DNA from: a virus
Length of the DNA stretch: 64,000 bases
IMG/VR virus record: IMGVR_UViG_3300010371_000028
Coordinates: 62,001-126,000 of that record
Direction: 5' to 3' (one strand)
Shown here: positions 14,531-26,206 of the stretch, in pieces
Layout: the number at the start of each line of letters is the position of its first letter
How positions within the stretch are numbered: the stretch's first letter is position 1
Made by a program: the position numbers and the translations under genes
The notes under the pieces: model-generated
Told to the model about the DNA's origin: nothing
Seen by the model: the letters and a program-made list of their open reading frames with translations, nothing else
Databases searched by the model: none

Positions 14531-16549
14531 TCAGGCGGCGCGGCCGTTGTCGGGCGCCCAGAAGCCCGGGTCGACGCCGGGCGTGGCCCACACACCGTGG
14601 GTGATCTTCACTACGTGGCCGGAGGCGCGGTCGCGCTTGAGGGCCTGGGACACGGTGGAGTTCTTGAGTCCGAGTGCGGTGACGATTTGGCCGGAGGTCA
14701 CGGGTACGCCGCGGCGGGCGAGGTAGGCGCGGATCGCCTCGCGGGCGCGCTGGGTGTCGAGGGCGTCGTTGTGCCGTGCGGCAGCGGGCGAGCTGACCGG
14801 AGCCGGCACGGTGCCGGGCGCGGTGTCGCCGGCTTCCTCCGCGTCCTCCTGGGTCGCCGCAATCGCCTCCAGGTGCGCGGTGGTACCGGCGGAGGCCCAG
14901 TCGTAGACGACGTTCTCGTCTGCGCAGAACGTCCGGAACAGCGCCGGCTTGACCGCGCCGAGGATGTAGCCGAGACCGAAGGTCGGCGACTCGTCCGAGA
15001 ACATCTTCGGAAGCTTGCGCGGGTCGCCGGGCAGATCCGGGAACGCCCCGGCGGTAATCGCCTCGGTGGTACGCAGGCACACGATCGACATCGCGGCAAG
15101 CAGCGGGCGGATCGTGAAGGAGTTGCCGAGTTCGGCGATCGAGGGCACCTGGGTCACCAGGCGCAGCCGGATCCCGCACTTGCGGCCCATCTTCAAAATG
15201 AACTCGACCATCCGCTTGATCTGCTGGTCGGCCAGCAGCGCGGGCGCTTCCTCGAGCGTGATCGAGAGCAGGGGCATCGCGGCGGTCGGGGTGAAGTAGC
15301 TCACGCCCTTGCGCTGCCTGCCCTTCGAGTCGGTCCAGATCCGCGCGGACAGTTCCTTGTTGCGCGCGAGCATCTCCCGGTAGGCGTCTTGAATGAGGGC
15401 GCGTGACTCGCCCAGGTTGCGGGCGAAGCGGTCGACCTGGTCCTGCCAGTCCGGCAGCGACTGGCCTTCCTGCGGGTCGCAGATCTGCGAGACGATCAGG
15501 TGGTTGCCGTCGGCGTCGAGGGCGTGTCGCTCGTTGATCAGGGCGTAGTCGATGTACCGGGACTTGCCGGCGCCCGACGCGCCGCACACGATCTCATGCC
15601 AGGCGCCTGAGCCGGGCTGCCAGAACCGGATCTGGGCCGGGGACAGGTCCGCGCAGCGCCCGACGGTGGCGACGCCGGTCGTGATGTCGATGGTGGGGCC
15701 GGGGAACGGGACGAGTTCCTCGAGCGGGTTGCGGTGGAAGATCGTGAGGATGCCCTGGTCTTCGCGTTGGTTCGTGACGGGTTCGACCTGGATGTTGAAA
15801 ATGGAGGTGCCGCGGGTCGCGGCCATGCGCTTGCGGGCCGCCTCCAGGTTGTCGATGGTGTGCTTGTCGCCGTTGAGTTGGATGTGCAGGCGGGTACGGT
15901 GCGCGCTCGCGTCGACCTCCCCGAGCAGGCGCGCGCCGGTGAGGGGTCCGGATTCGGAGGCGAACTTGCCGAGGAACCAGGCGGTCACCTCGGCGCGCTG
16001 CGCGGCGAACTCGTCGACCGGTTCGGGCTCGACCTGCGGCGACGGTAGGCGCCTGGCTCGGCGGCGCCGCACGAGGTGCCGGGCGGACCAGGTGCCGGAG
16101 GTCGCGGCGGTCACGGCGGTAAGCGCATCGAGGGCGAAGACGCTCGCCGGCCCGGTCGCGCACGCGATCACCAGCCATGCGAGGGACAGCGCGTACGCGC
16201 CGGCGTAGTAGGCGCGGCGGGTTGCAGAGGCGGCGGCGATCCGGCTGGACTCGCTGTTCGCGCGGGCGTAGAGCACCACCCCCGCGAGGATCACTGCGGC
16301 CCAGAGCAGCGGCCAGCCGACCACAGTGCCGTCGACCAGCCCGGCCGTCGTCTCAAGCCCGGCCGCGCCGAGCGCGGGCGCGAACTCGGCCGGGTGGTGC
16401 ACTGCGGCAATCACGCCGCGCTTGGCGAGGCGGACGGCGGCGATGGCCGCGTCGTCGAGCATTTCCCCGGCCTTGTCGGTGGCGCGCTCGCTGAGCGTGG
16501 CACGCCGGGCCTTGCTGCCGGGGGGCAGGTAGCCGTCGCGGTCGGTCAT
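14531..16549 (-). CDS. traB: TraB-type FtsK/SpoIIIE DNA translocase
   Basis: 672 residues. Two N-terminal spans (about 80-95 and 115-145), a linker, then the motor with Walker A GASGAGKS (323-330) and Walker B LLSITLEE (427-434). The C-terminus (600-660; VTSGQIVTALGLKNSTVSQA) is a winged helix like the gamma/TRS-binding domain of Streptomyces TraB. TraB hexamers move double-stranded plasmid DNA between hyphae and recognise 8-bp cis sites (clt). ATG 16549 has a perfect AAGGAGG. It lies with multispan Spd-like proteins; a phage-encoded FtsK-like protein is the alternative reading. Confidence 0.8.
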   Translation of the reverse strand: MTDRDGYLPPGSKARRATLSERATDKAGEMLDDAAIAAVRLAKRGVIAAVHHPAEFAPALGAAGLETTAGLVDGTVVGWPLLWAAVILAGVVLYARANSESSRIAAASATRRAYYAGAYALSLAWLVIACATGPASVFALDALTAVTAATSGTWSARHLVRRRRARRLPSPQVEPEPVDEFAAQRAEVTAWFLGKFASESGPLTGARLLGEVDASAHRTRLHIQLNGDKHTIDNLEAARKRMAATRGTSIFNIQVEPVTNQREDQGILTIFHRNPLEELVPFPGPTIDITTGVATVGRCADLSPAQIRFWQPGSGAWHEIVCGASGAGKSRYIDYALINERHALDADGNHLIVSQICDPQEGQSLPDWQDQVDRFARNLGESRALIQDAYREMLARNKELSARIWTDSKGRQRKGVSYFTPTAAMPLLSITLEEAPALLADQQIKRMVEFILKMGRKCGIRLRLVTQVPSIAELGNSFTIRPLLAAMSIVCLRTTEAITAGAFPDLPGDPRKLPKMFSDESPTFGLGYILGAVKPALFRTFCADENVVYDWASAGTTAHLEAIAATQEDAEEAGDTAPGTVPAPVSSPAAARHNDALDTQRAREAIRAYLARRGVPVTSGQIVTALGLKNSTVSQALKRDRASGHVVKITHGVWATPGVDPGFWAPDNGRAA

Positions 16550-16581: not shown

Positions 16582-17730
16582 TCAGTCGCCGGCGGGAAGC
16601 GCGCCGACGGTGACGGTGGGCAGTGCCATGTTCTGGGTGCTGGCGACGCCGTAGAACTGGCCGTCGGCACCGCCGTGGCCGGTGGCCATCGCGGCCTCGG
16701 CATGCGGCATCTGGTGGGTGTTGACGGTGTCGAGCGCGGCGACGGCGGCCTCGTGGTAGCCGGACGCTGCGGTGGACATGTTCGCGGCGATCGCGGCGAG
16801 GTCCTGGCATCCGGCGGCGAACGCGTTCGCGAGTTCCTGGTACGCGCCGCCGGCTTCGTGGAGCCGGTGGTATGCAGCGGAGGTTTCCGCGTCCACGTTC
16901 AGGACCGCCATGGTGGCGATCGCCATCTCGACGGCGCCGGTCTCGTCCTCGATGCGCCGGGCGGTCTCGCCGGCGAATTCGGCGGCGGCGATCGTGGAGG
17001 CGGAGGCGGCGAGGGCGTCCTCGGATTCCATTCCGGCGAATGCGGCGGCCTGGCCGGTGAACCCGACGAGGGATTCGAGGTCGGTGATGTCGGCGGACGG
17101 CATCGGGGGGTACTCCTTCAGCGGGGGAACGAGGGTGAGGTGGCGCGGGCCCGGCGTGGGCGCGCCGTCGAGGTCGTGGTCGAGAGGTTCGGCGACGGCG
17201 TAGGTGTCGTCACCCGGGTCATCGGTGTCGTCGACGAGTTCGGCGTCGGTCCAGTCGATGACCCCGGACTCGGGTCCGGAGCTGGGCGGGGCCGTGGCGG
17301 TCGGCCGGTCCGGACTCGGGCCCGGTTCCGGGGCTGTGGCGCGCGGAGTCGGCTCGACGGCGTCCGGGCCGGTCATGTCCGGGCGGCTGCGAGCGGTACG
17401 GCGCGTATACGCCAGGCCGGCGCTGCGCCCTCCGGCGCGCCCGGCCCGGTAGACGCGCACGCCGCTGACCCAGCCGGCGACTGACGCGGCGGTGCCGTCA
17501 CGACGCGCAGCCCTGGCGCGGCGTACGGCCCGGCGCCCCAACCTGTGGCCGCGGGCGAACGGGGCGCTGCCGTCGGCCCCGGTCAAGTCCGTGTCCGGCG
17601 ATCCCGGGCCGGGTGTTGCCGTGGCGGGCGCGGGGTGGGCGGGGCGCAGGCTGGCGCGGACGCCGGAGAACGCACCCGCGCCCAGCGTGACCATGTAGTA
17701 GCCGAAGATGGCGTCGAAAAGATCCGGCAT
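16582..17730 (-). CDS. Hypothetical transfer-module protein
   Basis: 382 residues in three parts: a hydrophobic N-terminus (LFDAIFGYYMVTLGAGAF); an Arg-rich then Pro/Asp-rich, probably disordered middle (about 20-215); and a C-terminal Ala-rich helical domain (about 225-370, many AAAEFAGETARR-type heptads) that could form a helical hairpin or coiled coil. Located directly upstream of traB, 10 nt after the membrane protein gene. A pore or scaffold partner of TraB is a reasonable inference but no family is recognised. Confidence 0.6.
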   Translation of the reverse strand: MPDLFDAIFGYYMVTLGAGAFSGVRASLRPAHPAPATATPGPGSPDTDLTGADGSAPFARGHRLGRRAVRRARAARRDGTAASVAGWVSGVRVYRAGRAGGRSAGLAYTRRTARSRPDMTGPDAVEPTPRATAPEPGPSPDRPTATAPPSSGPESGVIDWTDAELVDDTDDPGDDTYAVAEPLDHDLDGAPTPGPRHLTLVPPLKEYPPMPSADITDLESLVGFTGQAAAFAGMESEDALAASASTIAAAEFAGETARRIEDETGAVEMAIATMAVLNVDAETSAAYHRLHEAGGAYQELANAFAAGCQDLAAIAANMSTAASGYHEAAVAALDTVNTHQMPHAEAAMATGHGGADGQFYGVASTQNMALPTVTVGALPAGD

Positions 17731-17739
17731 CGTCTCCCC

Positions 17740-18321
17740 CTACACCAGGTGTTGGACGAGCGGGACGATGTGGCTGGCCATGCCCGCGTACACCCAGGAG
17801 GCGCCCTCGCCGAAGTAGCCCGGCACGAGGGTGAAAACCATCGGGCCGAGGAACATCAGCACGTCCGCGCCGCCCTGGTGGGCCTTGCCCTCGAGGACGT
17901 CGCCGAGCAGGTGCAGGCCCTTGTGCAGCGCGATCAGCGCGATGAGCGCGACGCCGACGTTCGTGACGTCCTGGCCGATCACGGGCAGGTGCCGGGTGCC
18001 GGCCTCGATCAGGCGCGAGACCCACAGCACGAACGAGCCGATGAACGTGCCGGACGCGGCGACCCCGGCAACGCCGAACAGCAGGAACGAGCACCAGGCC
18101 AGGGCGGTGCGGACGTGCCGGAGGGTCTTGACGGCGCCGCCGGAGCGCTGCACGAGGCTGCGGCGCTCGATCGACGCGGTGATGCTGGGGGTGCGGCGGC
18201 GCAGGAACAGGGCGAAGATCAGGCACAGGACGGTCACCCCGAGCAGGGACATGCTCGCCTGCGTGCGGGTGAGCGCGGACTGGGCGAGGGGGGCCGCCGC
18301 GGTGACGGCGATGTGGTTCAT
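17740..18321 (-). CDS. Multispan membrane protein of transfer module
   Basis: 193 residues, about four spans: SMSLLGVTVLCLIFALFL, AWCSFLLFGVAGVAAS, VGVALIALIALHKGLHLLG and a last one ending near the C-terminus. A basic segment (RRRTPSITASIERRSL) follows span 1. Size and context fit Spd (plasmid spread) membrane proteins of Streptomyces plasmids, but the family is inferred from topology. GGAG precedes the ATG. Confidence 0.6.
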   Translation of the reverse strand: MNHIAVTAAAPLAQSALTRTQASMSLLGVTVLCLIFALFLRRRTPSITASIERRSLVQRSGGAVKTLRHVRTALAWCSFLLFGVAGVAASGTFIGSFVLWVSRLIEAGTRHLPVIGQDVTNVGVALIALIALHKGLHLLGDVLEGKAHQGGADVLMFLGPMVFTLVPGYFGEGASWVYAGMASHIVPLVQHLV

Positions 18322-18346: not shown

Positions 18347-18841
18347 TCACTGGTTGGTCGGGCTGGTTTTCTGCTGTTCTTGCAGGTCGCAGGCGTGACT
18401 GTCCTGCAGGGTGCCGTGAATTTCACGCGTGAAATCGGGCGCGCCGGCCTTGCGTCCGGGGCACTGGCGGCGGTCTAGGAGGGCCACGAGCGCGCCGGCC
18501 GCGGCGATGGTGGCCGGCGCGCCCTCGATGGCTCGGATCCGGTCGAGGTGCGCCATGAACAGGGCGTGCAGGCGCCTCTCGGACCGAGCCGCGGCAACCG
18601 CTTTGCCACGGAGGTCAGGGGAACTGATCGTGGCCGTCACGGTCGGCGTCCCTTCCAGCCGTGTCGTGTCGGCGTGGCGGGTGACTGGCGCGACGGCGAC
18701 GGGGTGACGCCACGGGTCCGGCGACACGTGCCACCGGCCGACGACACGACTCGCGGTTCTGACACGCCTCGGCATTGCGCCGGGGGTGTCGCGTGCCACG
18801 TGCCGCAGGTGGCGTGTCCGGGTGCCCGTGTCGTTCGTCAT
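18347..18841 (-). CDS. Hypothetical transfer-module protein
   Basis: 164 residues from ATG 18841, which overlaps the DUF2637 stop (ATGA). The first 60 residues are Arg/His-rich and lie in the CGTGTCG repeat array; the rest (LRGKAVAAARSERRLHALFM) is a helical domain ending in CDLQEQQ. A GTG at 18637 with GGAAGGG upstream would give a 96-residue protein without the repeat-encoded part and may be the true start. Confidence 0.5.
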   Translation of the reverse strand: MTNDTGTRTRHLRHVARDTPGAMPRRVRTASRVVGRWHVSPDPWRHPVAVAPVTRHADTTRLEGTPTVTATISSPDLRGKAVAAARSERRLHALFMAHLDRIRAIEGAPATIAAAGALVALLDRRQCPGRKAGAPDFTREIHGTLQDSHACDLQEQQKTSPTNQ

Positions 18842-19398
18842 GCGACACGCTCCTTGTCGGTCGTGTCGTCGCCACCCGTGGCGCTCGCGGCGTTCTGCCG
18901 GTCGCGGCTGCGGGTCTTGCGTACGAGAACGTCGTCGACCTTCACGCCGACGACCCCGAGCGCTTTGACGATCTGGGAGGCGGCGCGGCCGGGCAGGAGC
19001 TGGTCTGCGTTGCGGATCGCGTCGGCCTTCGACATCTCCGGCCATGCGCTCACTGTCTCGGTCAGCTGTGCCACATCGGCGTCGAGGTTCTGCATGGGCA
19101 GGTTCGACACGACACGTGCCGGACGGGGACGTGTCGCCACGGTGGGCTTGGGTGTGGCGGCCGGCGGGACCGTGGCACGGGCAGGCGTGTCCGTGTCGTC
19201 GGTTGTGTCGTTGCCGCGTGTCGTGTCGGCGGGAGCCACCGTGTCGGGTGTCGTGTCGCCGGCCGTGGCAGTGGCGCAGGGCGCCGTGGCGTGGCGCGTG
19301 TCGGTCGGCGTGCCGCCGTGTCGGGGTGTCGCCGTGTCGGCCACGCGTGCCATCCAGGGCGATGGGGTGTCGAGGGTCGCGAGATCCGATGCGTGTCG
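18661..19398. repeat. Dense CGTGTCG heptamer array, candidate clt
   Basis: GTGTCG or its complement CGACAC occurs 23 times in 738 bp (18 and 5 copies), 19 of them as CGTGTCG. Two clusters lie at 18661-18868 and 19105-19398. The array crosses the border of two genes read in different frames, so it is not just a protein repeat. TraB proteins bind clustered short repeats at clt, and this sits 2 kb upstream of the traB-like gene. Confidence 0.6.
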
Positions 19399-20193
19399 GA
19401 CGGCTGCGATCTCTTGGATCAGCCGGTCGGTGCGAACCCTGTCGTGCGCTGCGCCCGAGACGCGCACGGCGGCGCGCAGCTTCCGGTTGACGCGCCGGCG
19501 CCGCTTGCCGGCGAGGAGCCAGCCGTTGATCGACGCGAGCCGGTCGGCCAGTTCTACGGCGTCGTCGAAGGCGTTGTTCTGCTGGATCTCCAGCGCGGTC
19601 TGGTCGGCCGCGGTGACGCCGAGCGCGGCGAGGAACCGCTGCTGCGCACTCTGCTTGATCTTGGCAAAAACACCGTCGGCGTCCTTGCCTTCGGCGGCGC
19701 GGCGGGCGCGCCGCTCGGGGACCATGCTGCGTTCCCACAGCCACGCGGCCACGAGCGGCGCGCCGAGGCGCACGAGGGCTTCCTGCGGAGAGGTGGCCTC
19801 GGTCGCCGACATGAACCCTGAGGCGCATGTGAGGACCCAGACGGCGAGCCCGTCGGCGCCGGCGTGGCCTTCGCGGGCGACGGCTGCGCGGGCACGGAGC
19901 GCGGATGCGAGCACCGCGATCTCCATGAACGCGAACAGGACGGCTTGGATCCAGACCGGCAGGTGCATGGTGCGGGTGAAGAAGTGCCACATGCCGGTCG
20001 CGGCGACGGAGGAGGCCATGGCGGCGGCCACGACGGTGAGGGTGTCGGCGGCCTTCTTCCCGCGCAGGGAGCGGGTGGCACGCCAGGCGAGGATCGCGGC
20101 TGCGATCACAGCGGCGCCCGACGCGGTAGCGAGCACCGGTACGGGGACCGAGTGGACGAGGTCGCCGAGCCGTTCGGTGGGTGTTGCGGTCAT
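18838..20193 (-). CDS. DUF2637-type membrane protein of transfer module
   Basis: 451 residues. Four N-terminal spans (about 18-160) include WIQAVLFAFMEIAVLASALR and GLAVWVLTCASGFMSATEAT, the DUF2637 pattern of actinomycete plasmids. A charged helical region follows (QQRFLAALGVTAADQ), then a Thr/Asp-rich stretch (about 300-360) encoded by the heptamer array, and a C-terminal HTH-like domain (MSKADAIRNADQLLPGR). First gene of the leftward transfer run; GGAGG lies before the ATG. Probably an Spd/membrane partner of TraB. Confidence 0.7.
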   Translation of the reverse strand: MTATPTERLGDLVHSVPVPVLATASGAAVIAAAILAWRATRSLRGKKAADTLTVVAAAMASSVAATGMWHFFTRTMHLPVWIQAVLFAFMEIAVLASALRARAAVAREGHAGADGLAVWVLTCASGFMSATEATSPQEALVRLGAPLVAAWLWERSMVPERRARRAAEGKDADGVFAKIKQSAQQRFLAALGVTAADQTALEIQQNNAFDDAVELADRLASINGWLLAGKRRRRVNRKLRAAVRVSGAAHDRVRTDRLIQEIAAVRHASDLATLDTPSPWMARVADTATPRHGGTPTDTRHATAPCATATAGDTTPDTVAPADTTRGNDTTDDTDTPARATVPPAATPKPTVATRPRPARVVSNLPMQNLDADVAQLTETVSAWPEMSKADAIRNADQLLPGRAASQIVKALGVVGVKVDDVLVRKTRSRDRQNAASATGGDDTTDKERVA

Positions 20194-25133: not shown

Positions 25134-25204
25134 GTCACCAAGGTACCCGCTGACGCTGATCGACAGCAGGAGTACGCCACCATGCGCCTGCACCGGGAGT
25201 GCCC

Positions 25205-26206
25205 GTGATCGAGGTGCGGCGTATGCCGCGCAACACCACGGCCGGGTTCGAGCGGATCCCCAACCGGGCGATTCGCAGCGTGGAGTTGTCGCTCTCCGCC
25301 GTCGGACTGCTCGCGCGGCTGCTGGCCGACGGGGAGCAGTACGACTCCATCGACGACATTGCCGCGGCCTACAACCCTGCCGCGCCCGGTCAGAAAACTC
25401 CGTACGGCTTTGGCCGAGACGTCTACCGGAAGGCCGCCCTCGAGCTCGAGGCCGCCGGCTACCTGGTTCGCACCGAGGAAAAGGGCGCTGGTAACCGCAC
25501 GCGGTCGCTGGCCAGGGCGATTCCTGAAAAGACGCAGATCGGAGCCGCGACGGACAGTCCGTCGCGGGAACGACGTGGGCAAACGGGTATCGGCGCAGAT
25601 CAGGCCCGGGACGGACAGTCCGTCGCGGGGATGACCTGGGAAAACGAGGCATACGAGCACGTCGAGCCCAGGACGGACAGTCCGTCCCGGCGCTCACCTG
25701 CGGAAACGACCCTTCCTGCACGTCAGTCCCGCGACGGACAGTCCGTCGCGGACTATATACAGACCTCTTTTCAGACCTCAGACCTCCTCCTCCACAGCGG
25801 CGACCAGGACAGCAACGTTCAGATCGGCAAGGAACAGGAGGAGGTGGACGGCGGTGCGTTCCAACCTCACCCCGACGCGCTCGCCGTCATCGCCGCCGTC
25901 GACCTCGGCGGCAAGCCGCTCGTCCCGAAGTCCCGCGATGAAGCCGAACTCACCCTGACGGCAAAGCTCGCCGAGGGCTGGACCGTGGCCGCCCTGACGC
26001 ACGCCTTCGAGGGCTGCACCGAAGGCGCCAGAAACCCGCCCGGCGCGTTCATGAGCCGCGTACGCGGACTTGGACCGCCCCCGCGCCCCGCAACCACCCG
26101 CGCTTCGCCGCGATGCCCCGAATGCAACGGCAGCGGCCTAATCGAAAACGACCTCGGCGACCCCGCCCCCTGCCCCACCTGCAAAACACCAAGGAGCAAC
26201 CCGTGA
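25205..26206 (+). CDS. Replication initiator with internal origin (O-like)
   Basis: 333 residues. The N-terminal domain (FERIPNRAIRSVELSLSAVG, YLVRTEEKGAG) is a winged HTH like those of plasmid/phage initiators. The middle (about 110-190) is encoded by four origin palindromes and so reads as alternating TDSPS and DGQSV motifs, probably a flexible linker. The C-terminal half has a helical domain (LTAKLAEGWTVAALTHAFEG) and a zinc ribbon CPECNGSG...CPTCK. The stop overlaps the dnaB start (GTGA), so the two are coupled. GTG 25205 follows GGGAG; GTG 25199 is an alternative. Confidence 0.75.
   Translation: MIEVRRMPRNTTAGFERIPNRAIRSVELSLSAVGLLARLLADGEQYDSIDDIAAAYNPAAPGQKTPYGFGRDVYRKAALELEAAGYLVRTEEKGAGNRTRSLARAIPEKTQIGAATDSPSRERRGQTGIGADQARDGQSVAGMTWENEAYEHVEPRTDSPSRRSPAETTLPARQSRDGQSVADYIQTSFQTSDLLLHSGDQDSNVQIGKEQEEVDGGAFQPHPDALAVIAAVDLGGKPLVPKSRDEAELTLTAKLAEGWTVAALTHAFEGCTEGARNPPGAFMSRVRGLGPPPRPATTRASPRCPECNGSGLIENDLGDPAPCPTCKTPRSNP
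25545..25790. other. Candidate replication origin inside the initiator gene
   Basis: Four palindromes centred at 25556, 25617, 25679 and 25740 (spacing 61, 62, 61 bp). The first is 23 bp, arms CCGCGACGGAC around a central A; all share GACGGACAGTCCGTC and differ only in the outer bases. Just after the last lies the AT-rich GACTATATACAGACCTCTTT region with three CAGACCTC repeats (25760, 25772, 25779). Spacing is not a multiple of three, so the DNA is conserved in two reading frames. Iterons plus AT-rich element inside the initiator gene matches oriLambda in gene O. Confidence 0.75.

Follow-up and report, generated by a model that had tools for sequence, protein, structure and literature searches.

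In an element that looks, from its gene content, like a phage-plasmid, we find that a dense array of the non-palindromic word CGTGTCG is maintained at the level of the DNA, and that across related elements the equivalent word depends on the C-terminal domain of an SpdB-like membrane protein and is independent of the transfer motor TraB. From these sequence comparisons we think it probable that this domain has as its DNA target the array in its own gene, and that the array would provide a ‘tether’ specific to each plasmid, for use in transfer, spread or inheritance.

The element and its transfer module

The window (the whole stretch of DNA analysed, 64,000 nucleotides) spans positions 62001-126000 of an IMG/VR virus record of 132,777 bp, which is possibly incomplete and whose relatives are actinobacterial. 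The record encodes a terminase, a tape measure protein, an integrase, a DnaB helicase and a GntR regulator, along with a second gene judged DnaB-like by its sequence; its transfer genes form a module on the minus strand. By description it resembles the Streptomyces plasmid-phages such as pZL12, in carrying phage structural genes and an FtsK-like transfer gene on one replicon, but is larger than pZL12 (132.8 kb, even if possibly incomplete). The SpdB-like gene comes first in the module, followed by a small ORF, two membrane proteins and TraB; in window coordinates, the features are:

18661-19398, unstranded: array of 24 GTGTCG/CGACAC words, consensus CGTGTCG (word counts, shuffles, codon permutation)
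18838-20193, minus strand: SpdB/DUF2637-like gene, 451 amino acids, with an N-terminal membrane domain, an Asp/Thr-rich linker and a C-terminal domain, bearing most of the array (same position as the annotated DUF2637 genes of relatives)
18898-19089, minus strand: the C-terminal domain, residues about 369-432, putative reader of the array and nearly without copies (shared with loci L036 and L048)
19090-19398, minus strand: linker-coding DNA, where the array is densest, 16 copies (word count)
18640-18837, unstranded: probably non-coding stretch behind the SpdB-like gene, six copies (coding score)
18347-18639, minus strand: predicted small ORF, about 97 amino acids, with a likely GTG start at 18639 and GGAAGG ahead of it
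17740-18321, minus strand: small membrane protein belonging to the module, with counterparts in L035 and L036 (sequence comparison)
16582-17730, minus strand: second membrane-associated module protein, likewise with counterparts in L035 and L036 (sequence comparison)
14531-16549, minus strand: FtsK-like TraB, 672 amino acids, with a C-terminal helix-turn-helix (HTH) region (NCBIfam and alignment)

TraB matches the NCBIfam plasmid_TraB model weakly (2.8e-13, below the family cut-off) and can be aligned to plasmid-borne TraB proteins that carry a (winged) HTH annotation. In the SpdB-like protein, residues 12-30 and 76-94 are hydrophobic, in keeping with membrane helices ahead of a cytoplasmic C-terminus; the protein matches no Pfam family at 1e-3, including PF10935 (DUF2637), and no NCBIfam model, and for want of the PF10935 match we refer to it as SpdB-like only, though many of its relatives are annotated DUF2637. 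Single-protein scans returned no close relatives of TraB from genome and viral contigs, and none of the SpdB-like protein from viral contigs; finding relatives took alignments.

The preliminary description of this DNA had spread the array over two genes. Copies do lie both in the larger gene and behind it, but the second gene is probably shorter than was thought, since its likely GTG start at 18639 is preceded by a Shine-Dalgarno-like sequence and the coding score ahead of that codon is negative; what had been taken as its 5′ half is probably intergenic.

Elsewhere in the window, the palindrome GACGGACAGTCCGTC occurs four times at 25549-25750 (starts at about 25549, 25610, 25672 and 25733, with a spacing of 61-62 bp), inside the gene at 25199-26206 that sits immediately ahead of DnaB; these copies look like the iterons of a replication initiator, placed within its own gene.

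The array word is constrained at the level of the DNA

Exact counting gives 19 GTGTCG and five CGACAC words, a slight correction to the 23 copies (18 to 5) first reported for an array that is real and far above what shuffling yields: dinucleotide shuffles of the same 738 bp contain 3.5 words on average and at most 10 (n=2000). Judged against the background of the full record, CGACAC/GTGTCG is the top 6-mer by local clustering (24 per 800 bp, against 1.05 expected), and CGACACG/CGTGTCG is likewise the most clustered 7-mer. The array is absent elsewhere in the element and relatives carry other words, in keeping with the initial impression of a cis-acting, DNA-level feature of a TraB transfer module. 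When synonymous codons were shuffled within the larger gene, which leaves both protein and codon usage unchanged, its 19 words compared with 8.4 expected, and the observed count was reached in none of 2000 permutations (none of 1000 in an earlier run). Copies occupy all three frames and both strands, and the six in the 198 bp behind the gene are themselves improbable (Poisson 1.5e-7); a 242-bp gap in the array, at 18863-19105, coincides with the part of the gene that encodes the conserved C-terminal domain.

Ten of the 16 forward copies within the gene encode Asp-Thr in a single frame, and the in-gene GGTACC copies of a related Thermobispora plasmid (L022) also all share one frame, as would be expected were the arrays a by-product of low-complexity, Asp/Thr-rich linkers and codon bias. 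We give this reading hardly any credence, given the excess over codon permutation, the use of every frame and both strands, the non-coding copies, and the other linkers and other words of relatives; a codon artefact as such was rejected, being contradicted by the permutation tests. Nor do relatives show the same low-complexity protein written in other codons, the outcome that the preliminary description had named as telling against it: they too have an array, but both its word and the linker are different.

The strand bias of the window (16 to 3 within the SpdB-like gene) arises mainly from the coding linker, largely from its Asp-Thr codons. The suggestion that this orientation sets a direction is not supported by comparison with relatives, in several of which the bias is absent or reversed (10:11 in L109, 19:19 in L034, 4:9 in L115 and 9:17 in L040). 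A KOPS-like polarity that guides an FtsK-type motor was considered and rejected on the same two observations.

Related elements carry other words at the equivalent position

TraB relatives were gathered from plasmids, genomes and IMG/VR, and about 40 related elements were compared, with genes of unannotated loci called by a simple script. Arrays were scored gene by gene with a codon-permutation, maximum-z word test; de novo EM motif finding was dropped in its favour, as weak loci drifted to codon periodicity. At p<=0.01, 22 of 38 TraB-linked SpdB-like genes had a word in excess, compared with 10 among 164 other genes (Fisher p 4e-12); of the TraB genes at these loci, one of 37 did so. Ten of the 38, and likewise L116, have no array even at p 0.05. 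Most relatives have, in the gene at the SpdB position, a dense array of up to 30 copies that is equivalent in placement but built from a different word, among them CCGAAAC (that of class A, defined below), CGGACA, CCTCGCG, TGACACC and GGCTCA; the array word of L036 is GTGACACC. The strongest case is GGCTCA in L109 and L112 (21 copies against 1.9 expected, ten on one strand and eleven on the other). These loci (L109:5972-10733 and L112:5472-10234) lie on Streptomyces plasmids of 88-91 kb in which the TraB-like gene adjoins terminase genes, and to judge by that gene content they are phage-plasmids, with the strongest arrays of all.

Non-coding copies are also present in relatives. Two GTGACACCCC lie in non-coding DNA behind the SpdB-like gene of L036, and class A has a run of words in 21-bp phase that crosses from the non-coding DNA ahead of the gene into its coding sequence; in this run motif columns are 70-91% identical against 50-75% for other columns; at L016:3275-3632, and in the same stretch of its class-A relatives, the phased units are CCGTTTCG and continue past the start codon. 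Copies that span the upstream region and the gene start might be read as an autoregulatory operator, through which the protein would bind the words and repress its own operon. In the window and most other classes, by contrast, copies sit deep in or behind the coding region, and the 500 bp upstream of the SpdB-like gene of the window contain none; we regard an operator as very unlikely.

Several other repeats and arrangements came to light in this survey. At L022:9711-10673, about 50 CGGTACC words lie in and behind the SpdB-position gene of the Thermobispora plasmid, and a tandem Gly-Thr repeat may explain part of this array. The CGAGCG array of L035 (L035:8767-9966) extends into the membrane-protein gene just ahead of TraB, which with 12 words against 2.8 expected is the top control gene. 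Nine GCATGCC words fall within the TraB gene itself at L042:10292-11053, possibly a TraB-read clt of that element. Compact GTCAGCA/TGCTGAC clusters behind the gene that follows TraB (L025:13549-13714, L026:13560-13734, L027:13552-13717 and L023:4021-4441) are possibly replication or integration repeats. Finally, one Kitasatospora contig has two tandem TraB genes (G001:C2:29672-34002).

The word follows the C-terminal domain of the SpdB-like protein

At 31 loci, the array word was compared with the SpdB C-terminus, the SpdB N-terminus, TraB and the TraB HTH. Motif similarity tracks the C-terminus with a Mantel r of 0.82, and of 0.68 once TraB, its HTH and the SpdB N-terminus are accounted for (p 1/2001, the permutation limit), bearing in mind that locus pairs are non-independent and that Mantel permutations correct for this only in part. 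Given the C-terminus, the partial r is -0.02 (p 0.65) for the TraB HTH and 0.005 for TraB as a whole. With the DNA of the C-terminal domain excluded and five loci added, the C-terminus retains an r of 0.75 and a partial r of 0.57, the TraB values being -0.03 and -0.02. Pairs that have similar TraB proteins but different C-termini (34 in all) show a mean motif similarity of 0.020, identical to that of unrelated pairs (0.020), whilst those with similar C-termini but unrelated TraB and N-terminus reach 0.21 against 0.016.

Individual loci behave in the same way. TraB is shared, but C-terminus and word differ, in L016/L017, L018/L085, L093/L094 and L031/L033; in L018/L085 the TraB proteins are nearly the same (0.97) and the arrays are CCTCGCG and CCGAAAC. 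Conversely, the seven class-A C-termini (ADIQxExxVxSxxTASxYRxEA) accompany several TraB lineages and all have CCGAAA/CGAAAC among their top words, although in one, L096, the word excess alone is not significant. In L085 a class-A C-terminus goes together with the TraB of L018; we had predicted the word CGAAAC for this locus in advance, and then found it. In both L016/L017 and L018/L085 the transfer modules are nearly identical, homology stops before the SpdB gene, and a roughly 90% identical backbone returns within 20 bp of its stop codon. What is exchanged as a cassette amounts to little more than the SpdB gene, the flank upstream of it and the array, which makes the product of that gene the obvious reader.

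The array had initially been taken for a classical clt, a site that the winged helix of TraB binds and at which the motor is loaded. Clustered short repeats within a transfer module are in keeping with this, and among ten control DUF2637 neighbourhoods the only one with TraB nearby, L063, is also the only one with an array (the single case, too, among 30 DUF2637 genes sampled from genomes at large). TraB of pSVH1 reads 8-bp repeats via helix α3, and TraA of pWTY27 footprints on TGACACC (PMC3583192); that protected 7-mer is identical to the array 7-mer of L036, a match that we counted against SpdB as the reader. Set against this, the TraB HTH shows no partial correlation with the word, similar TraB proteins with different C-termini sit at the unrelated baseline, and near-identical TraB proteins in L018 and L085 accompany different arrays. 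We consider TraB an improbable reader of the word, and favour the SpdB C-terminal domain.

The class to which the window belongs fits this general rule, for three loci only. The window protein has its C-terminal domain in common with L036 and L048 (39 and 44% identity across the C-terminal region); the N-termini of those two are unrelated to that of the window, as is the TraB of L048. The three arrays have in common a GACAC core, as CGACAC in the window and TGACAC in L036 and L048. L035 has the TraB closest to that of the window (58%), yet a different C-terminus, the word CGAGCG and not one GACAC. Searches of plasmids, 395 actinobacterial genomes and IMG/VR found no homologue of the domain beyond L036 and L048. 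As to its fold, the window domain has no Pfam HTH match, the best such match among the C-terminal domains being a weak one to Sigma70_r4 in L095 (6.8e-5, below the cut-off), and the AlphaFold models are of low confidence (with a pLDDT of 58.9 for that of the window and 71.6 for that of L031).

A model for self-addressed tethering

Synthesising these observations, we suggest that the N-terminal helices would hold the SpdB/DUF2637-like protein in the membrane, with the flexible linker extending down to a C-terminal DNA-binding domain; this domain would bind the CGTGTCG words clustered within the gene that encodes it and in the DNA directly behind. The array may thereby gather many copies of the protein on one stretch of DNA, such that the phage-plasmid is tethered to the membrane beside the TraB motor; the tethered molecule could then be kept in place, passed on and distributed along the hyphae, or retained at division. 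Binding and tethering are both inferred here, as is the main use, be it transfer, spread or segregation.

As array and C-terminal domain share one gene, linkage or common descent alone could carry both. Plain linkage does not seem to be the whole story, given the non-coding copies in the window, L036 and class A, the 21-bp phase that runs from non-coding into coding DNA, the excess over codon permutation in several frames and on both strands, and the slower decay of motif columns.

The array might instead be a parS- or parC-like partition centromere, with the membrane protein as a segregation anchor, and so act on inheritance and not on mating. At L021:11602-13164 lies a gene whose product is related to the SpdB-like protein of the window; it has a CCCGACA/CGACAG array, a ParA gene nearby and no TraB within 12 kb, which suggests a partition-linked version. 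In addition, spdA2/sps of pIJ101 affects stability, not transfer, and specificity classes that swap as alleles recall the incompatibility groups of ParR/parC (PMC9426499). But a regex search of the predicted genes of the record found no KGGxGK-type ParA, no partition NTPase was found beside the array, and in nearly all other relatives the arrays stand at the head of a TraB module; a centromere dedicated to partition is, in our judgement, unlikely.

Comparison with known systems

Our model, of a membrane-anchored reader that binds its own array, has partial counterparts. The clt loci of the Streptomyces plasmids pSVH1, pIJ101, pJV1 and pWTY27 are clusters of short direct repeats in or beside transfer genes, with plasmid-specific words in 3-9 copies (PMC3583192). 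The window array is likewise a plasmid-specific short-repeat cluster at a transfer region with an FtsK-like TraB, but comprises about 24 copies over 740 bp, lies inside a membrane-protein gene, and has a word that tracks the C-terminus encoded by that gene, not TraB. SpdB2, the spread protein of pSVH1, is integral to the membrane and oligomeric; it interacts with TraB and binds dsDNA, reportedly without sequence specificity (PMC4170104). By description, the window protein is similarly a membrane protein of a transfer module with putative DNA binding; it differs in that each protein class pairs with one word.

SpdA2 of pIJ101 (135 amino acids) recognises a single conserved 12-bp palindrome that occurs 1-3 times inside the spdA2 coding sequence, and removal lowers segregational stability (PMC4170104). 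Here too the candidate sites lie within the gene of their candidate binder, but there are up to tens of copies and many words, the binder would be a membrane protein, and the non-palindromic word of the window does not match the SpdA/sps palindrome CGTCACGTGACG. ParR/parC and ParB/parS resemble these arrays in having clustered sites next to the gene of the binder, here a candidate one, and ParR/parC also in that each family of binders is paired with its own family of sites (PMC9426499). They differ from the window array, beside which no partition NTPase was found and whose candidate binder is a membrane protein.

We also speculate, at about an even chance, that such ‘self-addressing’ is widespread in actinobacterial conjugative plasmids and phage-plasmids: a single gene would supply both a membrane-anchored reader and its own array, in many reader and word classes, and cassette swaps between near-identical transfer modules would give each element a TraB-independent address, possibly one that sets compatibility and transfer specificity. 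We found no earlier description of self-addressed arrays in open-access papers, where DUF2637 appears only in an unrelated context.

For dsDNA conjugation in mycelial bacteria, the choice of molecule is currently explained by TraB reading clt. Our data suggest that large plasmids and phage-plasmids have a second determinant of specificity, namely a membrane protein with its own address in its gene. It follows from the model that the word should be readable from the C-terminal domain, that a swap of the gene should swap the address, and that elements with a common address may interfere with one another; the spd genes, whose products are mostly uncharacterised, would thereby gain a concrete candidate biochemical role.
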